From the IMG/VR virus record IMGVR_UViG_3300034060_001783, positions 1-26,776 of that record: a stretch of 26,776 nucleotides of DNA; one strand, written 5' to 3'. This DNA comes from a virus. Positions 1 to 25,847 of this stretch are shown here, one piece after another (position 1 is the first letter of the stretch; every line of letters starts with the position of its first letter). The translations under genes and the position numbers were made by a program. The notes below the pieces were generated by a model. It was not told the origin of the DNA. It did not search any database and worked only from the letters and a program-made list of their open reading frames with translations.

Positions 1-1437
1 AATGCCCAAGGGGTTGGTAAACCATTCGCCAATGCTCGTGGCAAACCCCGTGACAGACGCCTTGGCATCCTCAACTTTATCGCTGAACCCCTTGATAAAG
101 CCGTCGATCACATTGCCCGCCCAACCCTGCATCTGCGTCACAAGGTCCGCCATGCCACTCGCCAGCGCCGCCGCCAACCCCGCGACGGCATCAATCGCCG
201 CCTGCGGCAACCCAAGCCACATTGCGTTGAAATAATCAAAGAAGGCCGCCGCCAAATCCTTCGCCGACGCCCACGCTGCCGCCCAATTTCCCGTCAGAAT
301 ATTGCCGACAAGGGCAATAACATCGCCCGCAATCCTACCCATTGCCGCGAAAGCCGCGCTAAAATAATCCACCGCCGCCTGCACTGGTGCAAAACTCATG
401 GCCCAATCTGCAAGTGCCGTCGCCCAGCCCGACACTTTTGAAACCACCAAATCCCAATTCTGATAAAGCGCGATAGCGCCCGCAACAAACAGCGAAACCC
501 CTAGAACCACCAAACCAATGGGCGACGCAAGAACCGCGACCGCACCCGCCAAGGCCCCCAGCGCAACCAACACTGGCCCAAGCGCCGCAGCCAACGCAGC
601 CCCCGCCACGATGAACGTTTGCACGTTAGGGTCTAAATTCTGAAAAGCCTTGGCAACCCCGGACACCCACTTTGCGATGTCTGCCAGGATCGGCAAGATG
701 ATCGCGCCCACCGCCTCCATAGCGTTGCCGATGTCAAGCATCGCGCCTTGTACTTCGCCCGCCGGTAAGTTGCGCGCCGCCTCGGCTTGGCCGCCGTATT
801 GCCGGGTCAGTTCGGCCATGATCAAAGCCTGCGCGCCCGCCGTATTCCCCGCGCTTTGCATCGCCCGGATCTGGTCCTTTTGCTGCGCACTAAACGAAAC
901 CCCCGCCCGCGTCAGCGCCGTCACACCCGCAATCGGGTCATTCAGCGCCTTGCCCAACATAATCGTGGACGATTGCAAATCGGTTCCCAAGCGCTGCGAC
1001 AGATCAAGCGCGGCTTGCTGCGCATCTGCAAAAACTTCGCCTTGCACATTGCCAAAGGTCAAAAGGTTGGCCGTCACCTTGGTCAAAATTTCGTCGTCAT
1101 CAAACAACGACTTGCCGCTCAACTTCGCCGCCATATCGCCCAATTGGTCGGCGGTAAATCCGGCCTGCCCCCCCATCGACTTAAGCGCCGCATCCACCGC
1201 CGCCATCGCCGCCGCCGACTCTGCCGCCCCGGTCACAGCCTGCCTGCCAAAAGCCACCAAGGGCGCGGTCAGCGCCAAAGATAGGCCACCACCAATTGCC
1301 CCCAACTTGACGGCTTGCGCCTCCATATTCTTTTGCAAATTTCCAAAGGTCGCCTGCGCGTCCGCCGCACCCTTCAAAAAGGCGGCAGAGTTGATGATCA
1401 GATCAACTCGCAGCGCCCCGATCAGACCCTTTGCCAT
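1..1437 (-). CDS. Tail tape measure protein (N-terminal 479 residues; runs off the left edge)
   Basis: The minus-strand frame stays open from ATG at 1437 to the window start. The protein begins MAKGLIGALRVDLIINS and continues with long alanine-rich helices, then hydrophobic stretches around residues 265-330 typical of tape measure proteins, which fix tail length and may pass DNA through the membrane. Position directly after the tail chaperones is the standard tail gene order. Its start overlaps the end of the upstream chaperone frame by 35 bp, so translation is probably coupled. The C-terminal part and the true length are outside the window. Assignment rests on order, length and composition rather than on a catalytic motif. 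Confidence 0.88.
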   Translation of the reverse strand, partial: MAKGLIGALRVDLIINSAAFLKGAADAQATFGNLQKNMEAQAVKLGAIGGGLSLALTAPLVAFGRQAVTGAAESAAAMAAVDAALKSMGGQAGFTADQLGDMAAKLSGKSLFDDDEILTKVTANLLTFGNVQGEVFADAQQAALDLSQRLGTDLQSSTIMLGKALNDPIAGVTALTRAGVSFSAQQKDQIRAMQSAGNTAGAQALIMAELTRQYGGQAEAARNLPAGEVQGAMLDIGNAMEAVGAIILPILADIAKWVSGVAKAFQNLDPNVQTFIVAGAALAAALGPVLVALGALAGAVAVLASPIGLVVLGVSLFVAGAIALYQNWDLVVSKVSGWATALADWAMSFAPVQAAVDYFSAAFAAMGRIAGDVIALVGNILTGNWAAAWASAKDLAAAFFDYFNAMWLGLPQAAIDAVAGLAAALASGMADLVTQMQGWAGNVIDGFIKGFSDKVEDAKASVTGFATSIGEWFTNPLGI

Positions 1438-1753
1438 CACCACCCCTATGTGCTTTGATCGTCAAAAAATAAGCCGAAATCGCGGCATCGCTTGAACCGG
1501 CCCGCCGCTTTTGCCCGCCCACAAACTCGCCGTAGCTTGGCATCTGTTTTGGATTATGCGTGGCAATCGCAATCAGCGATGCCAGCGTGTGCAGCTCGGC
1601 CCGCCGCGCCGCACCCTCGCGCTCGATGCGCGCCACTTGCGCATCCAAGATCAAGCCAATCTCTGCGGGCGTCAGCGCCCAAAACAAGTCATAGGGCTGG
1701 CCAATCGACAGCCAGCCCCAAAGCAGGCGATCTAGCCAATCGCCGCCTGCACG
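1403..1753 (-). CDS. Tail assembly chaperone, -1 frameshift extension (T-like part of G/GT)
   Basis: This frame encodes a protein ending in the pattern FWALTPAEIGLILDAQ, which fits the small tail chaperones found before the tape measure gene in alphaproteobacterial phages and gene transfer agents (Phage_TAC_6 type). The only start inside the frame is a TTG at 1687, but upstream codons already look coding (DWLDRLLWGWLSIGQPYDLFWAL), meaning that start would cut into the conserved part. The frame is open back to the slippery heptamer at 1753-1759. I therefore read it as the extension of the 1732-2136 gene: 128 residues of frame 0 plus 116 residues here, a 244-residue fusion. It would bind the tape measure protein and help tail tube assembly. 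A separate gene with a non-AUG start is the alternative. Confidence 0.8.
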   Translation of the reverse strand, partial: RAGGDWLDRLLWGWLSIGQPYDLFWALTPAEIGLILDAQVARIEREGAARRAELHTLASLIAIATHNPKQMPSYGEFVGGQKRRAGSSDAAISAYFLTIKAHRGGDGKGSDRGAAS

Positions 1754-2136
1754 TTTCCCGCATCGCCGACCACCGCATCGCTGGCAGCCACATCAGCCCC
1801 GGCGACCGCCGCCTTAGGTGCCGCCCCAAAGGCCTTGGTCAACGCATCCCCTAGCAAGCGCCCCACCTTTTCCATGCCAAGATCATCCATGATCAGCCCG
1901 GCTTGGCGTTCGGTTAGGCCCTCGTGGCAATCCGTCAAGCCTGCCCAGAAGATTTGGCGCAACCGGTCAAAGGAAATGTCATTGCCTTTGCCCACGTTAA
2001 AAACCGCCGCAATCTGCGTGGCTTTTAAACCGCTGATCTTTTCAAACTCCACCAGCGCATTGGTCGAATAACAAAGCGTAAACGCCTTATCTGCCACTTC
2101 AAAGCCGACCCCCTTCTTGCTGATCATCAGTTTCAT
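1732..2136 (-). CDS. Tail assembly chaperone, zero-frame product (G-like)
   Basis: A 134-residue protein beginning MKLMISKKGVGFEVADKAF, with the motif LCYSTNALVEFEKISG that resembles the GTA gp10-like tail chaperones (small proteins placed between tail tube and tape measure). It lacks membrane or signal sequences and probably coats the tape measure protein before the tube polymerises. Its start overlaps the stop of the tail tube gene by four bases (ATGA), indicating translational coupling. An alanine-rich tail (about residues 100-134) precedes the frameshift site, which lies six codons before its stop. Confidence 0.82.
   Translation of the reverse strand: MKLMISKKGVGFEVADKAFTLCYSTNALVEFEKISGLKATQIAAVFNVGKGNDISFDRLRQIFWAGLTDCHEGLTERQAGLIMDDLGMEKVGRLLGDALTKAFGAAPKAAVAGADVAASDAVVGDAGNVQAAIG
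1753..1759 (-). promoter_or_regulatory. Programmed -1 frameshift slippery site GGGAAAC
   Basis: On the minus strand the zero-frame codons read GCG GGA AAC, so the heptamer fits X_XXY_YYZ exactly. Slipping back one base moves ribosomes into the frame that encodes the second tail chaperone, and that frame is open from here to 1403. The zero frame ends only 19 bases later at TAG 1734-1732. Lambda G/GT uses GGGAAAG in the same gene position. Confidence 0.8.
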
Positions 2137-2540
2137 GCGGCCACCTCGGCGGTAACGTCACCCGATACGGTGCCCGTCAATTTCAACATGGCATCGTTTT
2201 CCAAATCGGTGCCGGAAACCTCGTAATCCACAATGCACTTTGCAGAAAACTTGGTGCCATCCGACAGCGTCACGCGCAGCCAAGTATAGTCGCGCGCTTG
2301 ATCAGCAATCGCCGCGGTGATCCCCGCTTTTGACGAAAAGCACTCAATACTAAATTCGCCGTATTCGGTGCGCCCCTTGCCAAATTCTTTGGCATTGCCG
2401 ACCGTATCCAGGCTGGTGCGGTCGCGCTTTTGCGACTTGATCGTGGGCACCGTCACCGATTTGACGCCCGCAATCTTGGTGTAAGCCACCCCGTCCACCG
2501 ACCGCTCGACGGTCCCGTCCCACAATTCTTGTTGTGCCAT
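2133..2540 (-). CDS. Major tail tube protein
   Basis: A 135-residue protein starting MAQQELWDGTVERSVDG. It has the short beta-rich make-up of TP901-1-like major tail proteins, with a C-terminal segment (DYEVSGTDLENDAMLKLTG) describing a data-typical 'substitution added to a base-type, tested for difference' layout of tube subunits. Position between the minor tail/HK97 gp10-like gene and the tail chaperones is the expected place. A GATAGAGGATG-type ribosome site (AGGATG) sits just before the ATG. The subunit would form stacked rings around the tape measure. A 20-bp gap separates it from the upstream gene, unlike the four-base overlaps around it, which leaves room for an own strong ribosome binding site, as suits a high-copy structural protein. 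Confidence 0.85.
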   Translation of the reverse strand: MAQQELWDGTVERSVDGVAYTKIAGVKSVTVPTIKSQKRDRTSLDTVGNAKEFGKGRTEYGEFSIECFSSKAGITAAIADQARDYTWLRVTLSDGTKFSAKCIVDYEVSGTDLENDAMLKLTGTVSGDVTAEVAA

Positions 2541-2560: not shown

Positions 2561-3001
2561 TTAAAGTTTCGCCGCCCGCTTTGCGGCCCGTGCTTTGGTT
2601 TTTGCGACCTCAGCCGCAAAATCCTGTTCCAAACTATCCACGACCTTTTGCCGTGTCTCTTCCCAGGCGGGGCGCGCATGGGGCTGTGCTGCATGGTTCA
2701 CCGTGCCAAACTCTTGCATCTGGCCCGCAGGGTTGGCGGTCCCGGCATAGACGATCACCTCATCCGCCGCGGGTTGATCGGCCTGCGACTTTTGCCGCCG
2801 CGTCAACACCGACCGCGCCCCGACCTTATAGCTCTTCGATAAGTTGCCGGTGCGCCCGACCGGCGCCTTGGCATTGGCCGCATCGACAAAAACCTTAAGC
2901 GCCTTCGTCGCCGACCGCGTTGTCACGGCCTTGGCCAAACGCCGGGGCAACTCGCGCAGGGCCGCGTCAATCTCGGCCCCGCCGCTAAAGACAACTTTCA
3001 T
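2561..3001 (-). CDS. HK97 gp10-like tail completion/neck protein
   Basis: A 146-residue basic protein with the pattern typical of HK97 gp10-like proteins: an N-terminal helix (ALRELPRRLAKAV), then KAPVGRTGNLSKSYKV in the middle and a conserved EFGTVNHAAQPHARPAW near the C terminus, the hallmark of this family. Members lie at the head-tail junction and help terminate or attach the tail. The gene starts with a four-base ATGA overlap on the upstream DUF3168 gene. The C terminus is a lysine/alanine-rich helix (AKTKARAAKRAAKL). Confidence 0.88.
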   Translation of the reverse strand: MKVVFSGGAEIDAALRELPRRLAKAVTTRSATKALKVFVDAANAKAPVGRTGNLSKSYKVGARSVLTRRQKSQADQPAADEVIVYAGTANPAGQMQEFGTVNHAAQPHARPAWEETRQKVVDSLEQDFAAEVAKTKARAAKRAAKL

Positions 3002-3378
3002 TCCTCACACCACCGCAGGGCCAAATCCATCCGCACCCGCCCCAACTTGGCCTCATGATCCTTGGCCACTTCTGACGACAGCGTGAAACTGGTGACAAAT
3101 ACGCCGGTGATCTTCACACCCAAAACCACCCCGCCGTAGCCCGAAAGCAGGCTGCGCAAGGCCCGCGCCACACTCAACGCCCCCGCCTGGTCCAAGGCCC
3201 AAACATCCAACTGCACCCCGCCCCGATGCACCCCCGTCTCGCCGTCCAAGGAATAGGCGGGCACCTCGCCCAGATCGGTCAGGGTGACGCGCGGATAAAC
3301 CGTATCGCGCGCATCCAACCAGCCCCAAGCCACATGGCCGCACACCGGCTTGATCAGGGCCACCAAGGCCTCATACAT
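2998..3378 (-). CDS. Tail terminator-like protein (DUF3168)
   Basis: A 126-residue protein starting MYEALVALIKPVCGHVAWG with the DUF3168 pattern: a conserved YPRVTLTDLGEVPAYSLDG stretch, a VQLDVWALDQAGAL segment and a terminal RVRMDLALRW strand. The family caps the tail tube at its head-proximal end (gp8 position in Rhodobacter GTA). It overlaps the upstream head-closure gene by 8 bp and the downstream gene by 4 bp, so it sits in a translationally coupled neck block. Confidence 0.88.
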   Translation of the reverse strand: MYEALVALIKPVCGHVAWGWLDARDTVYPRVTLTDLGEVPAYSLDGETGVHRGGVQLDVWALDQAGALSVARALRSLLSGYGGVVLGVKITGVFVTSFTLSSEVAKDHEAKLGRVRMDLALRWCEE

Positions 3379-10572: not shown

Positions 10573-11397
10573 TCAGGGGTTCGCCCGATACCACCCATCG
10601 GCCACCGCGATCATCTGCACGCGCCGTCCAACCCGTGCGGGATCAGCCATAATCTGCACCACCACCTCATCGCGCGGCGGGGCGATCACCACCCACGACG
10701 CCCGCAAGCCCAAAGCGCGCAGCCACGCCGCCCGCTCGGCCGCATCAGCGCCCACCATCACCACCCAAGCCTTGGGCGCTACCGGTTCGCACAGCCGCAA
10801 CAGATCGTGATCGCGCAACCCAAACGCCGCGCGCACCCGCACCTTGTCTTGATCCCAAGGCCGCCCGCCAAGCCGCACCAAATACTCATCCAGATCGATC
10901 ACCAGATCGCGCGGCCCCTTGTGCGCGGCCACGTAAGTCGACTTGCCCGCACCCGGCGGGCCGCCCACCAACACCACCGGCACCACCGACGGCCTGATCC
11001 CGTGCGGGATCGAATAGCCAAAGCGCACACCGGCAAAGACTTCCCGCGCCGTCTTGCGTGAGTGGCAGCGCTTGCACAGCGACTGCCAGTTGGTGTGGTC
11101 AAAAAACAAAGCCTCGTCCCCACGGTGCGGGGTGACGTGGTCCACCTCACCCGCCGCCACCACCAAGCCGTCGGCCTCACACTGGGCGCACAAGGGAAAG
11201 CGGCTCAGCCACGCGACCCGCCCCGATTGCCAACGTGCCGTGGCGTAAAGCTTGGCCCCCGCTTTGGCCGCGGGGCTGGCCTTGGCCGCGCGCCGCGCAA
11301 CACTTTGGCGGGCAAGGCGGGCATCCTCATGGGCCAAGCAGCGCGGCAAGCCCGCACCGGCCACGTCGTCACAACCAGGGGCGCAGCAGAGTTTCAT
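10573..11397 (-). CDS. HNH endonuclease fused to a P-loop kinase domain
   Basis: A 274-residue two-domain protein. ATG 11397 is chosen; upstream only a TTG is available. Residues 4-23 hold CC...C...C..H, a likely small zinc-binding cap. Residues 66-118 are a full HNH domain: FPLCAQCEADG, EVDHVTPHRGD (His87), NWQSLCKRCHSRKT (His112). The second half starts at residue 138 with VPVVLVGGPPGAGKST (Walker A 145-154) followed by DLVIDLDEYL, the pattern of AAA_33/polynucleotide-kinase-like P-loop enzymes. Phage HNH proteins next to terminase assist DNA cutting during packaging (HK97 gp74 in the literature). A kinase partner on the same chain suggests repair or marking of cut ends, but the substrate is not known. 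An intrinsic terminator lies just upstream. Confidence 0.88.
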   Translation of the reverse strand: MKLCCAPGCDDVAGAGLPRCLAHEDARLARQSVARRAAKASPAAKAGAKLYATARWQSGRVAWLSRFPLCAQCEADGLVVAAGEVDHVTPHRGDEALFFDHTNWQSLCKRCHSRKTAREVFAGVRFGYSIPHGIRPSVVPVVLVGGPPGAGKSTYVAAHKGPRDLVIDLDEYLVRLGGRPWDQDKVRVRAAFGLRDHDLLRLCEPVAPKAWVVMVGADAAERAAWLRALGLRASWVVIAPPRDEVVVQIMADPARVGRRVQMIAVADGWYRANP

Positions 11398-11416
11398 CTG
11401 GCCACCCCCGAAATGC

Positions 11417-11456
11417 AAAAAGCGCCCGACAGGTTTCCCCGGGGCGCAGCTTTAGA
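11417..11456 (-). terminator. Rho-independent terminator between the methylase and HNH-kinase genes
   Basis: On the minus strand a GCGCCC/GGGCGC stem with a loop of about 14 bases is followed at once by TTTTT; flanking AAAGC and GCTTT can extend the stem with a two-base bulge. It lies 20 bases before the HNH-kinase start, so it would stop leftward transcripts before the packaging and head genes unless they are antiterminated. Confidence 0.7.
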
Positions 11457-22780: not shown

Positions 22781-22995
22781 CCCCCCGCGCCAAACGCCCC
22801 GGCGTCACCAGTGCCGCCATCGTGCGCGCGGTCAAAGGGGCCGAGGCGGCGGGCCTAAAGGTGGCCAAGCTTGACATTTGCACCCACAGCGGCACGATCA
22901 CGGTGCACACCCTCACCGCCCCTGAACCGCCCAAATCACCGCTTGAACTTTGGCAGGCCAACCGACATGAAAATGCACCTCAAAGGCATCCATAA
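22777..22995 (+). CDS. Small protein next to the integrase; candidate excision factor
   Basis: A 72-residue protein, start ATG 22777 overlapping the previous stop as ATGA; its end overlaps the integrase start by 29 bp. Sequence VTSAAIVRAVKGAEAAGLKVAKLDI, then a strand-like GTITVHT and a basic tail. Short, basic proteins placed directly before a tyrosine integrase are often directionality factors. The motif is not a known Xis, so this is positional inference. Confidence 0.5.
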   Translation: MTPRAKRPGVTSAAIVRAVKGAEAAGLKVAKLDICTHSGTITVHTLTAPEPPKSPLELWQANRHENAPQRHP

Positions 22996-24070
22996 AGTTG
23001 GCCGCAAACAGGCTGACGGCAGCACCGTCACGCATTTTTACGCGTGGCGCGGCGGGCCAAAGATCACCGCCGACCCGGGCAGCGCCGAGTTTGTCACCCA
23101 GTGGCGCGACCTGACCGCCGCGCGGGGCGCACAACCAACCCACCACGCGGGCACCTTTCAAACCCTGATCACGGCCTATCAATCGACCCCGGCCTTTCTG
23201 ACCTTGGGCGAAAAGACGCGCGGCGATTACCTGCGCTACATCCGCCGCATCGAAACCGCCTTTGGCGATCTGCCCATGGCAGCGCTGAACGACCCCAAAG
23301 TGCGCGGCGTGTTTTTAGATTGGCGCGATCAGATCGCGCGCGCCAACCCGCGCACCGCCGATTACGGCTTTGCCGTGCTGGCCCGCATTGTGGCTTGGGC
23401 CTACGACCGGCGCAAAATCTTGGCCAACCCCTGCGAACGCGCAGGCCGCACCGCGCGCGGCACCCGCGCCGCCGCAATTTGGAGTGACGACGACGTGGCG
23501 GCGATGGTGGCCTTGGCCGCCCCGCAGGTGATCTTGCCGCTGCTGATCGCCCTTTGGACGGGCCAACGCCAGGGCGACATTTTGCGCTTAACGTGGGGCG
23601 CTTACGACGGGGCCACGATCCGCCTGCGTCAATCCAAGCGCGGCAAGCATTTGGCCATCCCCGTCGCCGCCGATCTGCGCGTGGCGCTCGATGCCGCCCG
23701 CGCCCAACGCGGCCAAGCGGTGACGATCTGCACCACCTCACGCGGCACGCCCTGGACGACGGACGGATTTAAAAGCAGTTTTGGCAAAGCCCAAACCGCC
23801 GCGGGCATCACCGGCCTCACGTTTCACGACCTGCGCGGCACCGCCGTCACCCGCCTTGCCGCCGCCGGTTGCACCGTGCCAGAGATTGCCCAAATCACCG
23901 GGCATGGCCTGAAAGACTGCGAAACGATCCTAGATCGCCACTATTTTTCGCGCGACAAAGGCCTGGGCGAGTCGGCGATTGCCAAGCTAGAACAGCACCA
24001 AAGCAGAACAAAGACTGTAAACCGTCCTGTAAACGGCCCACTCCGGCCCGCGAAAATATCCGCTAAGTAA
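22967..24070 (+). CDS. int: Tyrosine integrase
   Basis: A 367-residue tyrosine recombinase. ATG 22967 is chosen; an ATG two codons later is equally possible. N-terminal: arm/SAM-like part (residues 63-150, TLITAYQSTPAFLTL and RTADYGFAVLARIVAWAY). Catalytic part: Arg201 in WTGQRQGDILRL, Lys near 224-227, His287-Arg290 in FHDLRGTAVTRL, His313 in ITGHGL and Tyr326 in ILDRHYFSRD. The full set is intact, so integrase should be active. It is the last gene of the repressor-controlled operon and ends 10 bp from the 3' end of tRNA-Thr, its likely target. Confidence 0.96.
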   Translation: MKMHLKGIHKVGRKQADGSTVTHFYAWRGGPKITADPGSAEFVTQWRDLTAARGAQPTHHAGTFQTLITAYQSTPAFLTLGEKTRGDYLRYIRRIETAFGDLPMAALNDPKVRGVFLDWRDQIARANPRTADYGFAVLARIVAWAYDRRKILANPCERAGRTARGTRAAAIWSDDDVAAMVALAAPQVILPLLIALWTGQRQGDILRLTWGAYDGATIRLRQSKRGKHLAIPVAADLRVALDAARAQRGQAVTICTTSRGTPWTTDGFKSSFGKAQTAAGITGLTFHDLRGTAVTRLAAAGCTVPEIAQITGHGLKDCETILDRHYFSRDKGLGESAIAKLEQHQSRTKTVNRPVNGPLRPAKISAK

Positions 24071-24080
24071 TTGATTTAAA

Positions 24081-24120
24081 TGGTGCCCCCAACAGGGATC
24101 GAACCCGTGACCCCCTGATT
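24081..24120. other. Probable attachment site: 3' half of the tRNA-Thr gene
   Basis: Integrase ends at 24070 and the tRNA 3' end starts at 24081. The phage seems to have supplied the 3' part of the tRNA at integration. The second copy of this core should be at the other prophage end, outside this window, so the core length cannot be set. Confidence 0.7.
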
Positions 24121-24156
24121 ACAAATCAGGTGCTCTACCAGCTGAGCTATAGAGGC
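24081..24156 (-). tRNA. tRNA-Thr (anticodon UGU), CCA encoded
   Basis: Full cloverleaf on the minus strand: acceptor GCCTCTA with TGGGGGC, D arm (AGCTCAGCTGGTAGAGC), perfect anticodon stem CCTGA/TCAGG with loop TTTGTAA (anticodon TGT, reads ACA), T arm ACGGG/CCTGT with loop TTCGATC, discriminator A and encoded CCA at 24081-24083. Small wobbles occur in the acceptor stem. Intact and probably functional. Confidence 0.95.
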
Positions 24157-24197
24157 AGCAAAGGCGTGATAGCCAAGATCTGCACCGCTTGCAAGCC

Positions 24198-25847
24198 TTA
24201 GGCGCGCGAAGATCGGGCCATAATTGCTACGGCGGTCAGGCTGAAGGCGATGACCAGCAGGGCGGCGGGGGCGGCTTCGGTGATTTTCTCTAGGCTGGCA
24301 AGGTCATAGGCGCGGGTGGACAGGGTGTTAAAGTTGAACGGGCGCAGCATCAGGGTGGCGGGCAGTTCCTTCACGCAGTCAACGAACACCATCAGCAACG
24401 CGGTGCTGACCGATCCGCGCATCATAGGCAGGTAGATGCGACGCAGCACGCCGCCTGCGGTTTGGCCTAATGACCGCGCAGCCATCGGCAAGGTCGGGGC
24501 GACACGGCCGAAGGCCGCCTCGACCGCGCCTTGGGCGATACCGAAAAAGCGCACCGCATAGGCGAGCACCAAGGCGGCAGCTGTGCCGGTCAGTAACAGG
24601 CCCGGGTCGTGGCCTGTGACGGCCAAGATGGCATCGGCCAACTTATGGTCGAACGCCGCCAAGGGGATCAAGATTCCCACCGCCAGCACCGCGCCCGGTG
24701 CTGCATAGCCAAGCGACGTCAGTGGCAAGATCAGCCGCGCCAAGCCGCGCCGCGACAGGCGCAGCCCTTGGATCAGAAAGGTCGCCGCCGCCACCGTAAG
24801 CACGGCGGCGATCGCCCCCACCATCAACGTGTTAAGCACCGCCTGCCCCAAACCAGGTGCAAGCCATGCCTTGGGCTTTTGCAGCGCGTGGGCCAACATA
24901 ACCCCAACGGGCAGCACAAAGCCCAAGGTCACGGGCACCAGACAGACCAGCATTGCGACCCAAGCTTTCATCCCGTGCAAGTCCAGCGGCACCACCGGGC
25001 GCACCGCGCGCGAAGGCTTGTGAAACCGCGCATTGCGCCGGCTAGAGCGTTCAACAAAGATCAGGCCCAAGATCAACACCAAGATCACGCCCGCCAATTG
25101 CGCAGCACCGCCCGCATTGTCGCCGTTTAGCCAAGTGGAAAAGACCCCCGTGGTCAGGGTTTGCACGGCGAAATGTTGCACCGTGCCAAAGTCGGCCACA
25201 GTCTCCATCAAGACCAGCGCCAAACCTGCGGCAATGGCGGGGCGCGCCAATGGCAGGCCCACGCGCCAGAACAGGCCCCAAGGCCCTGCCCCCAAGGCGC
25301 GCGCCACTTCGTAGGTGCCGCCCGATTGTTCGCGAAAGGCAGCGCGGGCCAGAAGGTAGACGTAGGGGTAAAAAGCCGCCGCCAGAACAAGGGTGGCGAA
25401 GCCTAGCGAATGCACCTCGGGGAAGGCGTAGTCTTTGGCAGATTTCCACCCCATAGCCAGCCGCAAAGCGCCTTGCAGGGGACCCGAATAATCCAGAAAA
25501 TCGACCAAGGCATAAGCGCCGATGTAGGCTGGAATGGCCAAGGGGAACAGCAGCGCTTGGTCCAAAAGGCGGGCCAACGGGAAGCGGTACATCACCACCA
25601 GCCAAGCAGCACCTGTGCCCATGGCGACTGACAGGGCCCCCACACCGGCAGCCAAAATCAGTGTGTTTTCCACATAACGCGGCAAAACGGTGGCCATCAG
25701 GTGCGGCCAAATATTCTCGGTGGGGTGAAAGGCCAACCATATTACGGCCAGCACTGGGGCTACAACCACAAGGCCGATCATAACCGCGCCAACAGACCAA
25801 AGGTCAGGGCGGGCCAAGTGGCTTAGTTGACTCTTTTGCTGGGTCAT
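24198..25847 (-). CDS. fbpB: Iron(III) ABC transporter permease, fused two-domain type
   Basis: A 549-residue inner-membrane protein with about 12 hydrophobic segments and two permease halves. Each half has its ABC-binding EAA-type loop: EVARALGAGPWGLFWRVGLPLARPAI (about residues 179-204) and MAARSLGQTAGGVLRRIYLPMMRG (about 453-476). This double arrangement and length fit FbpB/SfuB ferric-iron permeases, which take Fe3+ from a periplasmic binding protein. No ATPase or binding protein gene lies in the window on this side; a ThiP-like permease is an alternative. It is host chromosomal, downstream of the tRNA on the far side from the prophage. The 3' end lies 41 bp from the tRNA. Confidence 0.85.
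   Translation of the reverse strand: MTQQKSQLSHLARPDLWSVGAVMIGLVVVAPVLAVIWLAFHPTENIWPHLMATVLPRYVENTLILAAGVGALSVAMGTGAAWLVVMYRFPLARLLDQALLFPLAIPAYIGAYALVDFLDYSGPLQGALRLAMGWKSAKDYAFPEVHSLGFATLVLAAAFYPYVYLLARAAFREQSGGTYEVARALGAGPWGLFWRVGLPLARPAIAAGLALVLMETVADFGTVQHFAVQTLTTGVFSTWLNGDNAGGAAQLAGVILVLILGLIFVERSSRRNARFHKPSRAVRPVVPLDLHGMKAWVAMLVCLVPVTLGFVLPVGVMLAHALQKPKAWLAPGLGQAVLNTLMVGAIAAVLTVAAATFLIQGLRLSRRGLARLILPLTSLGYAAPGAVLAVGILIPLAAFDHKLADAILAVTGHDPGLLLTGTAAALVLAYAVRFFGIAQGAVEAAFGRVAPTLPMAARSLGQTAGGVLRRIYLPMMRGSVSTALLMVFVDCVKELPATLMLRPFNFNTLSTRAYDLASLEKITEAAPAALLVIAFSLTAVAIMARSSRA

Follow-up and report, generated by a model that had tools for sequence, protein, structure and literature searches.

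The window analysed here comprises 26,776 nucleotides, i.e., positions 1 to 26,776 of the IMG/VR virus record IMGVR_UViG_3300034060_001783, and is an HK97-type prophage in which the genes follow the order terminase, portal, protease, capsid, connectors, tail tube, chaperone pair and tape measure. The chaperone pair is encoded on the minus strand, whereby the first frame, ORF1 (1732-2136), reads from ATG2136 to the stop codon TAG (1734-1732) and specifies a putative G-like tail assembly chaperone of 134 aa (13.9 kDa), and the second frame, ORF2 (1403-1759), lies in the -1 frame and specifies a putative T-like domain. Immediately upstream of ORF1 a tail tube protein gene (2133-2540, minus strand) was identified by its match to phrog_158 'major tail protein' (E=4e-5) and a weak match to NF047353, and immediately downstream follows a tape measure protein gene (1-1443, minus strand; PF06791 TMP_2, E=2.4e-7), which extends past the record end. 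The pair hence occupies the place between tail tube and tape measure genes that is characteristic for chaperones of the G/GT kind. That prediction had likewise named GTA-like chaperone families, and resemblance to these was found in the expected order, PF11836-like followed by PF09550-like. ORF1 matches phrog_2115 'tail protein' (E=1.2e-17) and reaches 18.6 bits against PF11836 (Phage_TAC_11/GTA-gp10), which is below the gathering cut-off of 27.8, and ORF2 reaches 17.3 bits against PF09550 (Phage_TAC_6; cut-off 23.4) and 14.5 bits against TIGR02216 (the rcc01693 family; cut-off 56.1). As both Pfam scores lie below the curated cut-offs, ORF1 and ORF2 are regarded as distant homologues and not as formal members of these families. 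GTA clusters are without integration genes of their own, and here a tyrosine integrase gene was identified at 22871-24070 (PF00589, E=8e-14); the window is a prophage and not a GTA. Its assignment to the Rhodobacterales is plausible. Within 22871-25847 the integrase adjoins an ABC transporter permease, which is probably a host gene marking the prophage edge. Elsewhere in the window, a single minus-strand ORF (10573-11418) was seen by eye to unite what looks like an HNH endonuclease part with a kinase-like part that carries a P-loop (GGPPGAGKST).

The 3' end of ORF1 reads GAT GCG GGA AAC GTG CAG GCG GCG ATT GGC TAG and thus contains, in phase with ORF1 codons 127-128, the heptamer G_GGA_AAC (GGGAAAC, 1759-1753, minus strand), a canonical X_XXY_YYZ site for -1 slippage, as had been predicted; its distance to TAG (1734-1732) amounts to 18 nt and not to the 19 given originally. 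After a slip at this site, reading would resume from base 1753 in the -1 frame (CGT GCA GGC...), which is open from there to the TGA at 1405-1403. ORF1 and the -1 frame overlap by 61 nt including the ORF1 stop, and the last upstream stop of the -1 frame is located inside this overlap. As a word, GGGAAAC occurs in the window at chance level (4 observed versus 4.35 expected). By chance, an in-phase heptamer is expected in the 19-codon overlap with a probability of 8.4% if every X_XXY_YYZ is counted and of 1.1% if only 15 efficient heptamers, picked from general knowledge, are considered, so that the heptamer on its own constitutes modest and non-decisive evidence. Furthermore, AAC in the YYZ position is generally held to be less shifty than AAG in E. 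coli. The strength of the case results from the heptamer in combination with a start-less, conserved -1 frame, with downstream RNA structure and with comparative data. The composition of the site also bears on the question of whether RNA polymerase rather than the ribosome slips, since transcriptional slippage would yield the same fusion protein; this process generally requires longer homopolymer runs than the runs of only three that GGGAAAC offers, none of the results obtained points to it, and its probability is considered to be practically negligible.

The -1 frame was found to be protein-like well ahead of its first possible start, as had been claimed. With a family model from whose building the window sequence was left out, the 24 residues between the slip site and TTG1687 (1685-1687, minus strand), the sole ATG, GTG or TTG of the -1 frame ahead of the conserved FW core, scored 10.4 bits, whereas the best codon shuffle reached 7.8 bits and none of the 14,688 scored shuffles attained the value of the real sequence. 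An alignment of 15 sequences identified an invariant tryptophan (W8) and a near-invariant one (W16), both upstream of TTG1687, and the AlphaFold model of ORF2 places a helix with confidence at residues 7-18, also upstream of this codon; residues 11-40 are the best-scored part of this model (pLDDT above 90), the overall pTM of which is only 0.39. A Foldseek search with the same model (pTM 0.39) gave no significant match, and for this reason no structural tie to lambda T is claimed. These data have to be weighed against the assumption that ORF2 is a separate gene, which starts at TTG1687 or some non-standard codon and whose translation is coupled to the ORF1 stop. This assumption would be in line with GenBank, where the second parts of Agrobacterium phage Rivra (gene 13, L069) and of Paracoccus phage Pben1 (p46, L071) are entered as separate hypothetical proteins with internal starts, located inside the conserved domain, and with those members of the wider family that do possess a real ATG or GTG near the ORF1 stop (a candidate start in 29 of 93 pairs, see below). 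For the window, however, a start at TTG1687 would remove W8, W16 and the first helix, as the original prediction had anticipated in stating that conserved residues would be cut off, and would lower the domain score against the family model from 50.8 to 25.1 bits. In addition, no Shine-Dalgarno-like sequence was seen upstream of TTG1687, and the 44 nt from TAG to TTG would have to be non-coding, yet conserved residues are encoded there. The segment with both tryptophans and the helix is reachable only via the shift. On these grounds TTG1687 is not regarded as a genuine start and ORF2, as far as its sequence indicates, possesses no functional start of its own, which renders a separately initiated second gene very unlikely.

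Downstream of the heptamer, two hairpins are predicted that would be suited to stimulate the shift. The putative stimulatory hairpin 1 (1726-1744, minus strand) begins 8 nt past the heptamer, comprises 7 bp (GGCGAUU-GGCUA-GAUCGCC) and has the U and A of the ORF1 stop codon UAG lying in its loop, and it is directly followed by hairpin 2 (1692-1720, minus strand), a strong hairpin of 12 bp. In a z-score scan of 701 windows covering 8.4 kb within the structural region, the 60-nt window that starts at 1749 and includes both hairpins was the most over-stable of all (z = -4.5, rank 1 of 701). Its exact position was chosen once preliminary results had been seen; the windows next to it on the regular grid, at 1740 and 1752, take ranks 6 and 8. 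Based on this prediction, the hairpins are the probable stimulator of the shift. The structure is also relevant to the idea that ORF1 and ORF2 are a single gene split by an indel, be it a sequencing error or the mark of a pseudogene. Adjacent frames are compatible with such a one-base shift, but exactly the junction combines a canonical heptamer with an over-stable structure, the neighbouring phage genes are intact, and the same -1 relation is found again in independent relatives, so that an indel is extremely improbable.

Sequence anatomy, the missing start, protein conservation of the -1 segment, predicted RNA structure and recurrence in relatives were all established by computation, and taken together they make it very probable that a programmed -1 ribosomal frameshift of the lambda G/GT kind joins ORF1 and ORF2, whereby the central claim of the original prediction is supported at the computational level. 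The suggested sequence of events assumes that the majority of ribosomes stop at TAG1732 and release the 134-aa G-like chaperone, while a minority (in lambda a few per cent, and probably similar here) would pause at the downstream hairpins. There the tRNAs would slip from GGA-AAC to GGG-AAA, and the slipped ribosomes would read the -1 frame to 1403, yielding a predicted GT-like fusion of 244 aa (25.8 kDa). By analogy to lambda, the G part may coat the tape measure protein, and the C-terminal T-like domain may recruit tail tube subunits. That slippage occurs, at which rate, and that the products act as chaperones is what we infer from this anatomy. For annotation, the consequence would be one gene with two products in place of a chaperone and a truncated orphan, and the window, in which heptamer, spacer and a stop-spanning hairpin come together, represents a well-formed test case.

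Scans of viral contigs with ORF1, capsid and tail tube found no close relatives of the window. A scan of genome contigs returned three Rhizobiaceae prophages as the only relatives, and a profile search across 385 alphaproteobacteria recovered one of these three and nothing else. Locus L146, the best of 12 loci from a scan with the tape measure protein, was dropped, as no chaperone pair was detectable in it by the family models. The distant phage relatives, coming from IMG/VR, Rhizobiaceae prophages and GenBank phages, share 19-32% identity in ORF2, and in 19 of 20 of them the second part is located in the -1 frame, most being devoid of an ORF2 start near the junction; in L019, L023 and L029, in-frame starts are located inside ORF1, a long way upstream. 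The sole relative with the second part in +1 phase is L034 (about 2645-3104), which may represent a +1 shift or a misassignment. In-phase heptamers were identified as GGGAAAC in L030 and L031, CCCAAAC in L022 and GGGAAAG in Pben1 (vB_PbeS_Pben1, MK291441, p45/p46), where a 5-nt spacer is followed by a hairpin of 7 bp whose loop contains the ORF1 UGA. Most Rhizobiaceae relatives are without a canonical heptamer and instead show CGC CCY, after which a GC-rich hairpin spans the stop of ORF1. In the Rhizobiaceae-type phages L001, L003, L008, L010, L014, L018, L019, L033, L040, L041 and L069, CGC-CCY (or CAC-CCC) precedes a GCGACGGC...GCCGTCGC-like hairpin that likewise spans this stop. A shift in these relatives would require slippage at C_CCY, possibly of a single tRNA (Pro) in the -1 direction, which counts against the frameshift reading. 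Covariation within the Rhizobiaceae hairpin was viewed by eye and is not claimed, because the coding constraint acting on the -1 frame is a confounder. The original prediction had named as evidence against itself a heptamer lost in homologues along with a proper second start kept in them. A kept start was not found, as most relatives have none near the junction, and the heptamer was found to be kept in part, i.e., in Pben1 and L030/L031 among these distant relatives, other sites being present elsewhere and the non-canonical one in most Rhizobiaceae relatives.

A wider view was obtained from PF09550 loci of alphaproteobacterial genomes, which gave 93 related pairs (loci L046-L068 and L074-L145), several of them confirmed as GTA clusters in that a Phage_tail_2 tail tube gene precedes and a DUF2460 gene follows the pair. 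No usable ORF2 start near the junction was identified in 64 of the 93 pairs, and in all 64 the second part lies in the -1 frame. An in-phase canonical heptamer is present in the overlap of 57 of the 64 start-less pairs versus 7 of the 29 with a candidate start (Fisher P about 1e-9, uncorrected for relatedness), and across the last 45 nt of ORF1 the canonical heptamers of the start-less pairs distribute over the three phases as 59:3:1, again uncorrected for relatedness. The Phe of the ORF2 PFxW motif is encoded in start-less pairs by TTT 37 times and by TTC 4 times, whereas TTC is favoured elsewhere in ORF2 (167:88). The RNA downstream shows a slight excess of stability (median z -0.61 vs -0.05, P=0.009, relatedness uncorrected). 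CCCTTTN is the dominant slip word in one order, and GGGAAAG and AAAAAAA are the dominant ones in another. At two junctions (L066, AAC CCT TTA TGA; L067, AAC CCT TTG TGA) the slip word is merged with a start-stop overlap, as if these loci were caught between a frameshift and a separate-start state, and a further junction (L056) carries GGGAAAG three times within 75 nt of the ORF1 stop, all in phase. From these patterns it appears likely that GTA g10 and g10.5, mostly entered as two genes, are one frameshifting gene in most alphaproteobacterial lineages. The junction would be conserved while its slip word (CCCTTTN, GGGAAAG, AAAAAAA, AAACCCT) changed repeatedly, some lineages having exchanged the slip word for a separate start, and sister Rhizobiaceae phages appear to use a non-canonical C_CCY with a conserved hairpin. 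If this holds true, domesticated particles with few-ring tails would still keep a lambda-type control of the G:GT ratio, and present gene lists (g10, g10.5) would either misplace the second start or list a gene that is never initiated alone. No description of a frameshift in the GTA chaperone pair was found in the literature searched, which is weak evidence since most subscription journals lay outside the search; a Wolbachia GTA paper with many mentions of 'frameshift' concerns a +1 shift in a hydrolase and not the chaperones. This GTA-wide pattern is the more interesting part of the result and worth following.

The mechanism as such is already known from lambda G/GT, and the pair in the window adds one further case. 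The lambda tail assembly chaperones gpG and gpGT were reportedly the subject of work by Levin in 1993, and the lambda heptamer is GGGAAAG. Common to lambda and the window are the order tail tube, chaperone and tape measure and a -1 shift at G_GGA_AAN near the end of the first frame, giving a short and an extended product, both predicted in the case of the window. The window differs in that its heptamer ends in C, its chaperones are of the GTA gp10 kind and a strong pair of hairpins lies downstream; the comparison is one of gene order and shift site. The G/GT frameshift was established by Xu, Hendrix and Duda (2004), as referred to in PMC5009743, and GGGAAAC is given as the frameshift site of the halovirus HCTV-1 (PMC5009743). 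Among phages of alphaproteobacteria, annotated predictions for the same locus exist for Caulobacter phage Colossus, with the identical heptamer GGGAAAC, and for phiCbK, with AAAAAAC in place of the GGGAAAC of the window (PMC3556154); both are likened to the window by locus, and Colossus also by site. A survey of R. capsulatus phages reports a chaperone frameshift in most of them (PMC8601537). In RcGTA, g10 and g10.5 are listed as two genes, 'tail chaperone 1 and 2' (PMC11409702); they share with the window the PF11836 and PF09550 families, as distant homologues, in the same order ahead of the tape measure gene, and the window differs from them in being a prophage with an integrase. The Pben1 pair p45/p46, annotated as two hypothetical proteins and distant in sequence, is homologous to that of the window and shares with it the -1 frame, the lack of an ORF2 start near the junction and a heptamer followed by a hairpin over the ORF1 stop, the heptamer being GGGAAAG.
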